49,774 bases of DNA from Dehalococcoidia bacterium (GTDB lineage Bacteria > Chloroflexota > Dehalococcoidia > SHYD01): assembly GCA_009692945.1 (NCBI GenBank), contig SHYD01000009.1, forward strand, positions 1 through 49,774, written 5' to 3'. The translations under genes and the position numbers were made by a program. Positions 12,431 to 42,669 of the stretch are shown piece after piece; position 1 is the first letter of the stretch, and each line of letters starts with the position of its first letter. The notes below the pieces were generated by a model. That model searched no databases, was not told the origin of the DNA, and worked only from the letters and a program-made list of their open reading frames with translations.

Positions 12431-12520
12431 GGCGTGCAGAGGGCGGCAGCCCTTTGCCAGGGGCTGTGGGGGTGCCTCCCACGAACACCTCTCTTCTCTT
12501 TCTTTAGGGTGGGGCAACAG
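12431..12520 (+). repeat. Two-hairpin dispersed repeat, copy R2
   Basis: Stem 1 is AGGGC/GCCCT and stem 2 is GTGGG/CCCAC, followed by a TCTCTTCTCTTTC tract and GGGTGGGG. It lies between the Rieske gene and a solute-binding-protein gene, with its G-rich end 73 nt before the latter's ATG. Confidence 0.75.
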
Positions 12521-12592: not shown

Positions 12593-13768
12593 ATGACCAG
12601 CCAGCACGTATCCGAGCCGTCCCGCCGCCGGTTCATCCGCATCGGCGGGCTCACCGGCGCCGCCGCGTTTGTTGCCGCCTGCGCGCCCTCGGCTTCGCCG
12701 CCCCCAGCGGCTCCGGCGTCCGGCGCCGCGCCCGCCCCGGCAGCCAAGGCTGCTTGGGAACAGCAGTGGGATAGATTGGTTGATGCTGCCAAACAGGAAG
12801 GTAAGCTAGCGGTGACATTTACGGGTGCGGGAGCCGGCTACAGGAAGATAGGCGAATCTTTTGAACAGGCGTTTCCAGGTGTAACCGTTGAGGTCACGAC
12901 ATTCGCGAGCGCCAGCCTGTTTGCGCCCAGGGTAATACAAGAACGAAACGCTGGGGTTTACACGTGGGACGTGGCCGCGCTCTCCATCAATGATACCTTG
13001 ATGAGTTTGATCCCTGCCGGAGCTATCGACCCGATTCGTCCGGTGTTGTTCCGGCCCGATGTTGTTGACGACACCGTCTGGCACAAGGGATTCGAGTTTG
13101 GATTTGCTGATAACGCAAAGAAATGGGGTTACTCGTACAATTGGTATAAACAAGGTGCGATCTTGGTCAACACGGACTTGGTGCGGGACGGAGAGGTACA
13201 GAGTGCGCGGGATCTGCTGAATCCAAAATGGAAAGGCAAGATCATCCTAGCGGACCCCCGAACTATTGGGAGTACCTCGGTTCCTTTGACCGGCATTCGA
13301 CTGAAGTTAGGGGATGAGGTAGTCAAACAGCTTCTTATTGATCAAGAACCCGTGATAAGCAGAGATGTGAGACAGCTGAGCCAGTGGCTTGCGCAGGGCA
13401 GATACGCCATGGGGTACGGTGTAACCGACGCCATTCTGGATGACTTCAAAGCACAGGGGCTCGGTCAGAACCTCAAGCATATTGATATACCAGAAGCCAT
13501 CATCCCGCAGATGACCGGCATCTATGCTATGAATCGGGCGCCTCATCCCAACGCAGCTAGGCTCTTCGTTAACTGGTTTCTCACCAAAGAAGGTCAAGGG
13601 ATTTATACCCGAAATGCCCTCCTGAACAGCCGAAGGAAAGACGTGCCTATCATCGATCCGAGGTTGGCACTGGATACCACCCGCGAGTACGAACATATAG
13701 GAGGAACCGAAGCGTTTCTCGAACCACATAGGAAAACGCAAGTGATGGCCAGAGAGCTATTCAAGTAA
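12593..13768 (+). CDS. Extracellular solute-binding lipoprotein (iron(III)/family 1 type)
   Basis: 391 aa. It should bind a small solute outside the membrane for an ABC importer. The N-terminus has a twin-arginine-like SRRRFIRIGG, a hydrophobic stretch and a lipobox ending at Cys (FVAACAP), then an Ala/Pro linker and the periplasmic-binding fold beginning AAWEQQWDRLVDAAKQEGKL. GAGGAGG lies 8 nt before the ATG. No permease or ATPase gene is adjacent. Three paralogues lie at 32546-33730, 37453-38613 and 41470-42669. The first 180 bp have GC-rich codons like the neighbours, but from about 12790 onward A/T-ending codons become common, suggesting a mosaic origin. Confidence 0.88.
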   Translation: MTSQHVSEPSRRRFIRIGGLTGAAAFVAACAPSASPPPAAPASGAAPAPAAKAAWEQQWDRLVDAAKQEGKLAVTFTGAGAGYRKIGESFEQAFPGVTVEVTTFASASLFAPRVIQERNAGVYTWDVAALSINDTLMSLIPAGAIDPIRPVLFRPDVVDDTVWHKGFEFGFADNAKKWGYSYNWYKQGAILVNTDLVRDGEVQSARDLLNPKWKGKIILADPRTIGSTSVPLTGIRLKLGDEVVKQLLIDQEPVISRDVRQLSQWLAQGRYAMGYGVTDAILDDFKAQGLGQNLKHIDIPEAIIPQMTGIYAMNRAPHPNAARLFVNWFLTKEGQGIYTRNALLNSRRKDVPIIDPRLALDTTREYEHIGGTEAFLEPHRKTQVMARELFK

Positions 13769-18493: not shown

Positions 18494-18522
18494 GTAGGGG
18501 CGGGTTTCAAACCCGCCCCTAC
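18494..18522. repeat. GTAGGGGCGGGTTT palindrome, copy 1
   Basis: A perfect 29-nt palindrome: GTAGGGGCGGGTTT and AAACCCGCCCCTAC around a central C. Related copies are at 24821-24848 and 27672-27699. It lies between cofE and the NADP reductase gene. Confidence 0.8.
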
Positions 18523-25061: not shown

Positions 25062-26177
25062 ATGCGCGGCGTTATCGACGCGGACACCCACATCGTTGAA
25101 CACCCCGGCATCTGGGAGCATATGGACCGGGAGTTCTACCCCCGGCGCCCCGTCATCGTCAAGGCGCCCAGCGACACCTGGTACGGCAGCGTCAACGCCT
25201 TCTGGCTGCTGGACGGCGAGATCTTCCCACGCCCGGTGGGCAAGGGCAGCTTCGGACTCCACGTGCCCGGCGGCGACCGTGAGGAAGCCCGGGAGGACGT
25301 GCCACCGGGTGTTCGTAACCTGACCGACGTCCCCGGCCGGTTAGCAGCGCTGGAAGCACGGGATGTGGAGGCCGAGGTCATCTACCCCACGTTGTTCATC
25401 ATGTACCTCACCGATGACGTCGATCTGGAGATCGCCCTCTGCCGGGCCTACAACCGCTACATGGCGGACGTGTGGAAGCAGGGCGGCGGGCAGTTGCGCT
25501 GGGTGGCGCCGCTGCCGCTGCGGTCGGTCGAGGCGTCGGTGGCCGAGATGCGCGTCGCTCAGGAGGGCGGCGCGGTGGGGCTGCTGTTCCGGGGCGTGGA
25601 GGGAACCCGCTCGCTGGCGGAGCCCTACTTCTATCCCGTCTACCAGGAGGCGGCCCGGCTGGGGCTCCCCATCTGCGTCCACACCGGCGGCGGCAGCCCC
25701 GCCATCACCAAGTCCTTCGACATCACCTACAGCCACGTCTTCCCTCACGTCCGGGTCACCCCGCTGTTCGCGTTCCGGGACATCGTGGCCCACAAGGTCC
25801 CGGAGCGGTTCCCCGGCCTGCGCTTCGCCTTCGTGGAGGCGGCCTCGTCCTGGGTGCCCTACGTGCTGCACCTCCTGCGGCGGGCCGCCAAGGCCCCCAT
25901 CACGGTGGGTCCGCTGGGACCGTCGTGGGACTCGGGGTGGGGCCCGAAGCTGTTCCAGGACTACAACCTCTACGTGGCCTGCGAGGCCGACGAGGACATC
26001 CCCTACCTACTGAAGTACGTGGGCGAGGATAACCTCATCATCGGGTCGGACTACGGCCATCAGGACCAGTCGCGCGACGACGGTGTGGTGGCCCTCATCA
26101 ACCGCCGCGAGGACATCCCGCCCTCAGCCCGGACCAAAATGCTGAGCGACAACCCCCGCCGCCTTTACGGGATGTAG
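25062..26177 (+). CDS. Amidohydrolase family protein (ACMSD-like)
   Basis: 371 aa. A TIM-barrel metal hydrolase/decarboxylase of the amidohydrolase-2 group. VIDADTHIVE gives an Asp-x-His in place of the usual His-x-His. ICVHTGGG, RFAFVEAASSW and IIGSDYGHQD carry the other expected metal or catalytic residues. GAGGAGG lies 8 nt before ATG 25062; upstream sequence in frame is repeat. It is followed 11 nt later by nitrile hydratase beta, so it probably belongs to the same operon and may act on the amide or acid formed by nitrile hydration (inference). It is not a classical amidase. Confidence 0.88.
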   Translation: MRGVIDADTHIVEHPGIWEHMDREFYPRRPVIVKAPSDTWYGSVNAFWLLDGEIFPRPVGKGSFGLHVPGGDREEAREDVPPGVRNLTDVPGRLAALEARDVEAEVIYPTLFIMYLTDDVDLEIALCRAYNRYMADVWKQGGGQLRWVAPLPLRSVEASVAEMRVAQEGGAVGLLFRGVEGTRSLAEPYFYPVYQEAARLGLPICVHTGGGSPAITKSFDITYSHVFPHVRVTPLFAFRDIVAHKVPERFPGLRFAFVEAASSWVPYVLHLLRRAAKAPITVGPLGPSWDSGWGPKLFQDYNLYVACEADEDIPYLLKYVGEDNLIIGSDYGHQDQSRDDGVVALINRREDIPPSARTKMLSDNPRRLYGM

Positions 26178-32545: not shown

Positions 32546-33730
32546 TTACTTGATGACCTCTTTGGTCAGCGCGTAGATCCGGTTGACCTCTTCCAGTTGG
32601 GCCTCAGCCTCGATGGTGGGATACGTCCTGCCGGCGGTCGGCAGGTACCGGGGATTGCCGGGAGGCACGCCATCGGTGCGCCGGCTATTCTGGCCGGTGA
32701 ACTTGGCCCAGTTGGTCTGGCCCTCCTTGGTGAACAGCCAGTTGATGAACAGCTTGGCAGCGTTGGGGTGCGGCCCGCGTTCGATGCGGTAGGTGTTGCT
32801 GGTGGAGAGCAGGAAAGTGCCGCCGTCGATCTCCAGGAATTTCAGGTTCTTGCCAAGCCCCTGCGCCTCGAAGTCCAGGAAGGCGTCGGCGTTGGGAACA
32901 CCGATACCGATGGGGTACTGGCCCTTCACCATGAACTCGGTGCCCTGGCGCAGGTCGCGCACCAGCACTGGTTCCTGCTCGCCGTACAGCTTGCGGACGA
33001 ACTCTTCACCGCCGGTGCGCTTCATGTCCAACACGTTCCAGGCCACGCCGACGGAACGGGGGTCGAGACTCAGGATCTTGCCCTTCCACTTGGGGTTCAA
33101 CAGGTCCTTGATGCCGCTGATCTCGGTGGCGCCCACCTGATCGGTGTTGATCCACAGCCCCAGGTTCCGGTCGAAGGTGGGGGCGTACATCATGCGCTTT
33201 TCTTTGTCGAGGAAGCCCGCCTCGAAGCCGCCGGACCACACCTTGTCGTCGATCACGTCGCCGCGGAAGATCAACGGGCGCACCGGCTCGAGGGCGTTGG
33301 CCGGCCGGAGGTTGATGAGGGGGGTGGTCACGGTCGCCAGCATCAAATCTTGGCTGTAGACGCCGCCCTGACGCTCCTGAATGATCTTGGGGACGATGGC
33401 GCTGGCGTTACCGGCTGTGTGTTGCACCATGATGCCTGGGAAAGCGGCCTCGAAAGTGTCCAGGAACTTACGAAACTGTGATCCCGGGTAGGTGATGACG
33501 GCGACCTCTTTCTCCTTCTTCGCCGCCTCCACCAGCGTGTCCCATTCCTTCTCCCATGCGGCCTTGGCGGGTGCGGCCGCGGGCGCCGCCTGCCCGCTGC
33601 GAGCCGGATCGCTGGCCGGGGCCGCGGCCGGGGCGCACGCCGCAACGGCGGCCGCGGCGCCGGCCAGCGATCCGGCTCGCAGGAAACCGCGGCGGCTGAT
33701 ATCGTGCTGGTTCTCGTTGGAAACGGTCAT
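32546..33730 (-). CDS. Extracellular solute-binding lipoprotein (family 1 type)
   Basis: 394 aa, paralogue of the proteins at 12593, 37453 and 41470. It has a twin-arginine motif (SRRGFLRAG), a lipobox ending AVAAC, an Ala/Pro linker and a binding fold beginning AAWEKEWDTLVEAAKKEKEV; ERGPHPNAAKLFINWLFTKE is conserved among the paralogues. GGGAGGA lies 4 nt before ATG 33730. The signal-peptide and linker codons contain a 22-bp perfect inverted repeat. No transporter permease or ATPase is nearby. Confidence 0.9.
   Translation of the reverse strand: MTVSNENQHDISRRGFLRAGSLAGAAAAVAACAPAAAPASDPARSGQAAPAAAPAKAAWEKEWDTLVEAAKKEKEVAVITYPGSQFRKFLDTFEAAFPGIMVQHTAGNASAIVPKIIQERQGGVYSQDLMLATVTTPLINLRPANALEPVRPLIFRGDVIDDKVWSGGFEAGFLDKEKRMMYAPTFDRNLGLWINTDQVGATEISGIKDLLNPKWKGKILSLDPRSVGVAWNVLDMKRTGGEEFVRKLYGEQEPVLVRDLRQGTEFMVKGQYPIGIGVPNADAFLDFEAQGLGKNLKFLEIDGGTFLLSTSNTYRIERGPHPNAAKLFINWLFTKEGQTNWAKFTGQNSRRTDGVPPGNPRYLPTAGRTYPTIEAEAQLEEVNRIYALTKEVIK
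33597..33682. repeat. 22-bp inverted repeat within the signal-peptide/linker codons
   Basis: CTGCGAGCCGGATCGCTGGC plus CG at 33597-33618 is repeated as its exact reverse complement at 33661-33682, with 42 nt between. It encodes LRAGSLAG on one side of the lipobox and PASDPARS on the other. The mRNA could form a long hairpin about 50 nt after the start codon. Confidence 0.9.
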
Positions 33731-34308: not shown

Positions 34309-34360
34309 AGATAACCACAGGAGCCCCGCAGCTTATGCTGTGGGGCTCCTGTGGTTATCT
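34309..34360. other. 24-bp near-perfect hairpin
   Basis: AGATAACCACAGGAGCCCC plus GCAGC (34309-34332) pairs with 34337-34360 around a TTAT loop, with one G-T mismatch. The stem is much longer than usual for a terminator and lacks a clean T-run. The 290 nt before it (34019-34308) contain no convincing gene but several short complementary stretches, so it may be the end of a structured RNA or a relic of a mobile element. Confidence 0.6.
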
Positions 34361-37452: not shown

Positions 37453-38613
37453 ATGGACAGCGGGATTTCACGGCGGGTGTTTGTGAAGGTGGGCGGGTTA
37501 GGACTGGTGGCGGGCGCCTGCGCCCCCAGCGCGGCGCCGCAGTCTCCGGCCAGCGCGTCGGCAGGCGGGCAACCGGCTCCGGCGGCAAAGGCGGCGTGGG
37601 AGGTGGAGTGGGACAAGCTCGTGGCGGCGGCCAAGGTGGAAGGGAAGCTGGTGGTGCAAACCGCCACCGGTTCCGGCTACCGCGAGGCGTTGGAGGAATT
37701 CAACAAGGCCTTCCCGGGCGTGGAGGCAACTCAGCTGGCATTCGCTGATGCCGCCACCTACGTACCCAAGATTAAAGCAGAGCGCCAGGCGGGGGTCTAT
37801 AGCTTCGACGCTGCCCTCATCCCGCCGACCTCGGCGCTGCAGCAACTCAAGCCCGATGGCGTGTTCGACCCGCTGCGGCCCCTGCTGTTCCGGCCCGACA
37901 TCCTCGACGACAAGGTATGGGACGGCGGCTTCGAACTGCAGTGGTGCGATGTGGACAAGAAGCTGGCTTTCTTCATCCAGCGCGATGTCAACCACAACAT
38001 CTACATCAACACCGACTTGGTGAAACCTGCCGAACTCGCCAAGGTCGAGGACCTGGTCGATCCCAAGTGGAAAGGGAAGATGGTGATGGCCGACCCGCGG
38101 CAAGGCGCGGTGCGGCTGCCCATGACCTCCCTCTGGCTCAGCGGCAAGAAAGACCTTATCAAGAAAATGATTATCGACCAGGAGCCCCAGATCATCCGGG
38201 ACCGCCGGCAGAACGTGGAGGCGCTGGTCCGGGGCAGGGTTCCCTTCGCCGTTGGCATCCTCAAGGCAGTGTTGCACGAGTTCAAGAAAGATGGTCTCGC
38301 ACAGAACGTCATCGCGCTGGATTTGCCCGAAATCGACTACCAACCCCATGACATTGCCCTAGTATTCAACAGGGCGCCGCATCCCAATGCCGCCAAACTA
38401 TTCCTTAACTGGATCCTTACCGAGGAAGGGCAGACGGCGTGGTCCAAGAACGTGTTCGTTAACGCCAACCGCATCGATGTTCCCATCATCAACCCAACCG
38501 ATGCCCCCAAGCCGGGAGTCGTCTACAAGAACCGCAACCAGGAAGCGATCTACCCCATCGTCGGCGAGGTGGAGAAGCACATCGCCGATATCCTGAAGGC
38601 GGCGAACCTATAG
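37453..38613 (+). CDS. Extracellular solute-binding lipoprotein (family 1 type)
   Basis: 386 aa. SRRVFVKVG suggests Tat export, and the lipobox ends VAGAC. The binding fold begins AAWEVEWDKLVAAAKVEGKL; KWKGKMVMADPR and RAPHPNAAKLFLNWILTEEG are shared with the three paralogues in the window. GGAGG lies 7 nt before the ATG. It follows an acyl-CoA dehydrogenase pair rather than transporter genes and precedes a small hypothetical protein. The ligand is unknown. Confidence 0.9.
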   Translation: MDSGISRRVFVKVGGLGLVAGACAPSAAPQSPASASAGGQPAPAAKAAWEVEWDKLVAAAKVEGKLVVQTATGSGYREALEEFNKAFPGVEATQLAFADAATYVPKIKAERQAGVYSFDAALIPPTSALQQLKPDGVFDPLRPLLFRPDILDDKVWDGGFELQWCDVDKKLAFFIQRDVNHNIYINTDLVKPAELAKVEDLVDPKWKGKMVMADPRQGAVRLPMTSLWLSGKKDLIKKMIIDQEPQIIRDRRQNVEALVRGRVPFAVGILKAVLHEFKKDGLAQNVIALDLPEIDYQPHDIALVFNRAPHPNAAKLFLNWILTEEGQTAWSKNVFVNANRIDVPIINPTDAPKPGVVYKNRNQEAIYPIVGEVEKHIADILKAANL

Positions 38614-41469: not shown

Positions 41470-42669
41470 ATGACCGTTCAGGTGTCGCGGCCGTCGCCGT
41501 CCGTCACGCGGCGGCAGGTGCTGGGAGCCATGGCATTGAGTTCCGCTGCAGCCGCCTGCGCGCCCGCCAGTGCTCCGGCGGTGGCGTCACCACCACCCCA
41601 AGCGCCCGCCGCCGGAAAACCTGCCTGGGAGGCGGAGTGGGACCAATTGGTCGCGAAAGCCAGGCAGGAGGGCAAGCTCAATATCATGACCTTGACCGGC
41701 GTGGGCCAGCGCAAGCGGATGGACGCCTTCCAGAAGGCGTTCCCCGGCATCGAGGCGAACCTGCAGGAATTCTCCTCCGCCAGCCAGATTGCCCCCAAAG
41801 TCATAGCCGAGCAAAAGGCCGGGGTGTTCGAGTGGGACATGGCCGACATCTCCCCCACCACCGCGCTGCAAGTGATGCGCCCGGCGAACACCTGGGACCC
41901 GATTCGTCCGCTGTTCTTCCGCCCGGACGTGCTGGGCGACGAGAACTGGCACGGCGGCTTCGAGGAGGGGTTCATCGACACCGAAAAGAAGTGGGCCTAC
42001 GGCGGCGACTACATCGTCAGCCCCCGCAACAGTTGGATCAACACAGACTTAGTACCCGAAGGGTCCATCAAGTCCGTCACAGACCTGCTCGATCCCAGGT
42101 GGAAGGGCAAGATCCTGATTGCGGACGTGCGTACCGGGTACACCTTCTTTCCCATGAACGTCCTGCGGGTTTCCCGCCCCAGCGACGGCGAATCGATCAT
42201 GAAGCGGCTGCTGGTGGACCAGGAGCCCACCTTCCTGCGGGACACCCGCCAGATCACCGAGGCGATGGCCCGCGGCAAGTACGCCATTCTGGCCTCGCTT
42301 GGCTTGGAAGAGGTGACCCTGACCGATATGCAAAAAGAAGGCGTGGGAAAGAATCTGAAGCCGATCGAGATCCCGGAATTCACCTACGGCGGCGCCGCTG
42401 GCAGCATGTTCCTTTACCAGAAGGCGCCCCACCCCAACGCCGCCAAGCTCTACGTGAACTGGGTGTTCACCAAAGAGGGCCAGATCGCCTACCAGAACGG
42501 GCCCGACCCGGCCCGCAACAGCCGCCGCAAAGACGTGCCGGTGTACGACAAGTCCACCTTCCCCGACCCCACCCGCAAGGTCTACAACAACAGCAAAGAA
42601 AGCAGCATCAAGGACCTGGAGGTCACCCAGAAGATCCTGGAGCAACTGGTGGGGCTGTCGAACCGGTAG
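41470..42669 (+). CDS. Extracellular solute-binding lipoprotein (family 1 type)
   Basis: 399 aa. TRRQVLGAMALSSAAAAC combines a twin-arginine-like motif with a lipobox. The fold begins PAWEAEWDQLVAKARQEGKL, and WKGKILIADVRTGY and KAPHPNAAKLYVNWVFTKEG are shared with the paralogues. AGGAGGG lies before the ATG. It converges with the M20 peptidase gene 18 nt downstream. No permease genes are close. Confidence 0.9.
   Translation: MTVQVSRPSPSVTRRQVLGAMALSSAAAACAPASAPAVASPPPQAPAAGKPAWEAEWDQLVAKARQEGKLNIMTLTGVGQRKRMDAFQKAFPGIEANLQEFSSASQIAPKVIAEQKAGVFEWDMADISPTTALQVMRPANTWDPIRPLFFRPDVLGDENWHGGFEEGFIDTEKKWAYGGDYIVSPRNSWINTDLVPEGSIKSVTDLLDPRWKGKILIADVRTGYTFFPMNVLRVSRPSDGESIMKRLLVDQEPTFLRDTRQITEAMARGKYAILASLGLEEVTLTDMQKEGVGKNLKPIEIPEFTYGGAAGSMFLYQKAPHPNAAKLYVNWVFTKEGQIAYQNGPDPARNSRRKDVPVYDKSTFPDPTRKVYNNSKESSIKDLEVTQKILEQLVGLSNR

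Follow-up and report, generated by a model that had tools for sequence, protein, structure and literature searches.

Template switching has been documented in bacteria (E. coli), phage and yeast, and the documented events include coding changes (PMC8604942). In quasipalindrome correction (Ripley model; van Noort et al. 2003, cited in PMC10434271; PMC7202029), one arm of a local inverted repeat takes on the reverse-complementary sequence of the other arm, and synthesis returns to the original template nearby. In most of the events described, a few bases of a quasipalindrome that already existed are altered. In yeast evolution, clustered amino-acid changes have been produced by template switching (PMC8604942). 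The replacements described by Abraham and Hazkani-Covo (2021, PMC8604942), who used a strain phylogeny, kept the frame of coding DNA and affected at most five neighbouring residues. Perfect inverted repeats within protein-coding sequence are also found in the mitochondria of Nematomorpha (PMC6649704), where they are numerous, reach 284 bp and code for conserved regions with both arms. In intragenic invertons, the phase-variable inversions to which related work is devoted (PMC11892184), inverted repeats flank an intragenic segment.

In this study, we analysed a stretch of 49,774 nucleotides (the window) from a Dehalococcoidia MAG of 2.5 Mb (99 contigs, 81% complete). The window contains a solute-binding lipoprotein gene with a long inverted repeat near its start. 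This repeat is very probably the scar of a short local two-step template switch, a fold-back copying of the quasipalindrome type, for which we infer the polymerase steps. Understood in this way, the locus adds one more case to a mutational mechanism that is already known. It differs from the quasipalindrome corrections in that about 23 nt (up to 34) were rewritten at once and in that the nearest paralogue shows no strong quasipalindrome as a forerunner. The frame was kept as in the yeast cases, but the change is found in a bacterium, comprises about 6-7 adjacent tether residues plus the gain of one codon, and was recognized by comparison with paralogues. Unlike the Nematomorpha palindromes, it is a single case, and the copy is found in a linker that is not conserved. 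Yeast and laboratory mutants have provided examples of template switching in coding DNA, and polarised natural rewrites of a bacterial protein have rarely been described. The present locus provides a clear before/after pair within one genome. It illustrates how the tether of a lipoprotein, being free of constraint, can acquire six to seven residues through a single event, and codon models would read such a one-step change as a burst of substitutions.

The gene (32546..33730, minus strand, 394 aa) was delimited from the open reading frame, Pfam matches and an alignment of paralogues. A program-listed ORF of 427 aa begins at an upstream ATG; the paralogue alignment favours the ATG at 33730, which is preceded by GGGAGG. 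Three Pfam families matched above their cut-offs: SBP_bac_8 (E 1e-9), SBP_bac_11 (6.7e-9) and SBP_bac_1 (5.7e-8). The N-terminal twin-arginine signal sequence (SRRGFLRAGSLAGAAAAVAAC) contains the Tat motif SRRGFLR and is followed by a lipobox V-A-A-C at Cys32, a Pro/Ala linker and the solute-binding domain. Since the twin-arginine motif, hydrophobic stretch, lipobox Cys and binding domain are all present, the product is, as judged from its sequence, a Tat-signal lipoprotein and ABC-type solute-binding protein that is predicted to be exported. The MAG is rich in such proteins: four are encoded in the window (12593-13768, 32546-33730, 37453-38613 and 41470-42669) and at least 16 loci lie elsewhere. 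In the window, these genes are interspersed with acyl-CoA dehydrogenase and CoA-transferase-like genes. The other two genomes of the family to which the MAG belongs gave at most one marginal match.

An earlier note on this DNA had reported a perfect 22-bp inverted repeat at 33597-33682, and had assigned its arms to signal (LRAGSLAG) and linker (PASDPARS) codons. The repeat is present at these positions and the peptide assignment is right, but the perfect arms measure 23 bp (33597-33619 and 33660-33682) with a spacer of 40 nt. They can be extended inward to 34 bp, of which 33 are paired (33597-33630 and 33649-33682, spacer 18 nt). On the coding (minus) strand, the arms fall in codons 17-28 (L R A G S L A G A A A A) and codons 34-45 (P A A A P A S D P A R S). 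The 5' arm (33649..33682, gene nt 49-82; perfect part 33660-33682) consists of the signal codons LRAGSLAGAAA and the first base of Ala28. The 3' arm (33597..33630, gene nt 101-134) consists of the linker codons (P)AAAPASDPAR(S), and its perfect 23-nt tract at 33597-33619 codes for PASDPARS. The 18-nt loop between the extended arms (33631..33648, minus strand) surrounds the TGC codon of the lipobox Cys. The sole unpaired position of the 34 joins 33620, the third base of Ala37, and 33659, the third base of Gly24 (gene nt 111 and 72). It is a wobble base on both sides, and the difference is synonymous in either arm.

The repeat might have arisen by chance complementarity of G+C-rich codons for Ala, Pro and Gly. 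The inner 11 bp are indeed formed by Ala-rich codons that pair easily, and paralogue linkers joined to the signal of the window gene gave stems of 7-15 bp. However, a 23-bp stem was never reached. In 3000 synonymous resamplings of the protein it did not occur once (maximum 21), the 3000 codon-order shuffles did not exceed 15 bp, and the window signal codons combined with 4000 random linkers built from paralogue codons gave 17 bp at most. Even at 80% G+C, fewer than 0.01 cases of at least 22 bp are expected per 2.5 Mb. The repeat was also the longest perfect one (arms of at least 13, spacer of at most 100) in 289,075 bases of the genome, which comprise the window and 15 other stretches taken around paralogues. 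The arms of the other long inverted repeats in this background (at least 16 bp) are separated by 0-14 nt, and these repeats resemble terminators or palindromic repeats. The 23-bp core is therefore excluded as a chance product, and chance as an explanation of the repeat has a negligible probability.

The polarity of the change was read from the paralogues, of which the same genome has at least 19 (18 scored matches including the gene itself, together with 37453-38613 and 41470-42669). All of them have the same signal and linker architecture. In the first 210 nt of 17 paralogues, the longest perfect stem was 7-11 bp and the codon-shuffle folding z ranged from -1.3 to +1.8, whereas the window gene has the 23-bp stem and a z of -5.0. 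The two further paralogues in the window (37453-38613 and 41470-42669) have stems of 7 and 9 bp. The repeat is thus absent from 19 of the 19 paralogues examined. A close orthologue was found neither among 100 relatives, nor in 393 genomes of the class, nor in a contig scan of the GTDB species, and the best long matches outside the genome had less than 40% identity. The exact hairpin was absent from the other 399 of the 400 phylum genomes searched. The signal arm is conserved among the paralogues as [IL]R[VIA]G..L, and SDPAR occurs in none of their linkers. Because the signal arm is paralogue-like and SDPAR matches no paralogue, the copying must have run from the signal arm to the linker arm.

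The closest paralogue, C38 (G000:C38), shares 72% of amino acids and 74% of nucleotides with the window gene. Its linker reads AAAPPAP-APSGQ against AAAPASDPARSGQ in the window gene. The alignment is clean up to CAPAAAP and again from SGQAAPAAAP; between these points, P-A-P-A-P in C38 is opposed to A-S-D-P-A-R in the window gene. In DNA, the window has CCGGCCAGCGATCCGGCTCGCAG followed by CGG, and C38 has CCGCCTGCACCGGCGCCCAG followed by CGG. Accordingly, 20 nt were replaced by 23 nt, a net gain of 3 nt that keeps the frame, and the new tract of 23 nt is the exact reverse complement of the signal codons. Directly after the copied tract stands the return junction CAGCGG (33594..33599, minus strand), which is common to both genes (window ...GGCTCGCAGCGGGCAG, C38 ...GGCGCCCAGCGGACAG), and colinear homology continues past the copied tract (CAGCGG..CAGGCGGCG). 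C38 itself has a stem of only 10 bp at other positions and is a paralogue, not the immediate ancestor.

These comparisons support the template-switch origin that the earlier note had proposed for part of the linker: in the paralogues, the signal arm is retained while the Pro/Ala linker is unrelated and lacks the repeat, and the copy is bounded by sequence shared with C38. The event was a replacement, not an addition of linker. In the mechanism that we propose, the growing strand would have folded back during replication where G+C-rich Ala codons flank the lipobox. A stretch of about 23 nt (34 at the most) from the signal-peptide codons of this same strand would have been copied as reverse complement, and synthesis would have returned to the normal template at CAG/CAGCGG. 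The 23 nt coding for APASDPAR would in this way have taken the place of about 20 nt in the ancestral linker of Pro and Ala codons (roughly APPAPAP). Since the copy ends with a CAG that is also present in the ancestral-type sequence, the return may have used a 3-nt microhomology. The inner 11 bp may be pre-existing complementarity of Ala codons, hence the copied length is uncertain and the exact ends of the tract are approximate; this inner Ala-codon arm may also have served as the seed for the fold-back. The change was probably tolerated because this part of the protein is a flexible tether that links the lipidated Cys to the binding domain, and it may have been selectively neutral.

The copy can also be placed in time relative to the paralogues. 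At fourfold-degenerate sites, the window gene and C38 differ by 49%, while the two arms differ at just one of their 11 wobble-wobble pairs. Had the arms diverged as the paralogues did, at most one differing pair would be expected with P about 0.008. On this measure, the copy is much younger than the duplication that separated the paralogues, unless selection or repeated homogenisation kept the arms together.

Selection of this kind might have acted on the hairpin itself, if an early mRNA stem slows elongation or tunes expression or export and the arms are kept complementary for that reason. The 86-nt RNA stem is predicted to be very stable (-83.7 kcal/mol, z -9.2), and the arms show almost no decay, with 10 of 11 wobble pairs intact. 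However, the lack of decay is explained equally well by the youth of the event, and a comparable stem was found in 0 of the 19 paralogues examined despite the same signal and linker layout. The stem lies outside the initiation region, as it begins 49 nt into the gene. The Tat pathway exports folded proteins and acts post-translationally, and a Tat-type signal therefore implies post-translational export. The same three points speak against the suggestion of the earlier note that the mRNA hairpin slows translation during export, and a selected hairpin is very unlikely. The literature found on hairpin-slowed export dealt only with peptide arrest or unrelated systems, and Rfam gave no family match in the window. 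The hairpin was also considered as a conserved feature of the family; this was rejected because it is missing in the paralogues. Given the predicted stability of the 86-nt RNA, the hairpin may have some influence on translation or on the lifetime of the mRNA. The simplest reading is that of a tolerated mutation in a flexible tether, and nothing points to selection on the hairpin.

It was also considered that the copy is an artefact of library or assembly, made by a fold-back chimera or, where a short inverted repeat is present, by a de Bruijn mis-join. The fragmented state of the MAG would suit such an error. In a fold-back chimera, however, all sequence past the joint is inverted, whereas in this gene sequence that is colinear, in frame and paralogue-like returns 23 nt later, and the net gain of 3 nt keeps the frame. 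The assembled spacer has the orientation with the conserved lipobox Cys, which a mis-oriented spacer would drop. Because the frame and the paralogue-like sequence run on at both sides and the lipobox Cys is kept, an artefact is very unlikely.

The spacer raises a further question of orientation. If the 40-nt spacer is inverted, it stays in frame and loses the lipobox Cys (SLAGAAAGAHAATAAAAPASDPARSGQ). Inversion of a spacer between the arms of an inverted repeat by template switching is known (PMC8604942). Further template switching could thus act as a recombinase-free anchoring switch between a membrane-anchored lipoprotein and a released binding protein of the signal-peptidase-I type. Only the Cys-containing orientation was assembled, and we consider such a switch highly improbable. 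A recombinase-driven inversion was rejected: the genome has no serine recombinase, and its five tyrosine recombinase matches all lie on contigs other than that of the window (C47). The locus resembles intragenic invertons in that inverted repeats flank a segment within a gene and the inverted spacer would also be an open frame. It differs from them in the lack of a serine recombinase and of a nearby tyrosine recombinase, in its single assembled orientation and in its spacer of only 18-40 nt.

Palindromic elements are known to occur in frame in coding genes, for example the Rickettsia palindromic elements. A mobile element of this type (RPE/REP-like) could have been inserted into the linker, and a dispersed palindrome family does exist in the same genome. 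However, the arm is unique within 3 mismatches, only the two arms being found in a search that covers about 81% of the genome and would miss copies in the remaining 19% or so. One arm is the ancestral signal sequence common to the paralogues, and the length changed by only 3 nt. An inserted element is therefore hardly conceivable as the origin of the repeat. The dispersed REP-like palindrome, GTAGGGGCGGGTTTSAAACCCGCCCCTAC, occurs at 10 places with 0-3 mismatches (window 18494-18522; G000:C44:9884-9912; C82:4709-4737; seven more), and a control with the reversed pattern gave none.

Other repeats were observed in the window. A 24-bp hairpin at 34309-34360 (96% paired, 4-nt loop) lies between the solute-binding gene and an acyl-CoA dehydrogenase gene; it has no obvious T-run and is possibly a bidirectional terminator. 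A 13-bp inverted repeat with a 38-nt spacer at 43-106 is found again near the start of contig C7 (35-98), indicating that contig ends share a repeat. The motif GCAGAGGGC occurs in both orientations, at 12436, 22496, 22572, 26914 and 34406 on the plus strand and at 25434, 41291 and 46431 on the minus strand. It lies mostly near gene starts or ends and is possibly a degenerate dispersed repeat.
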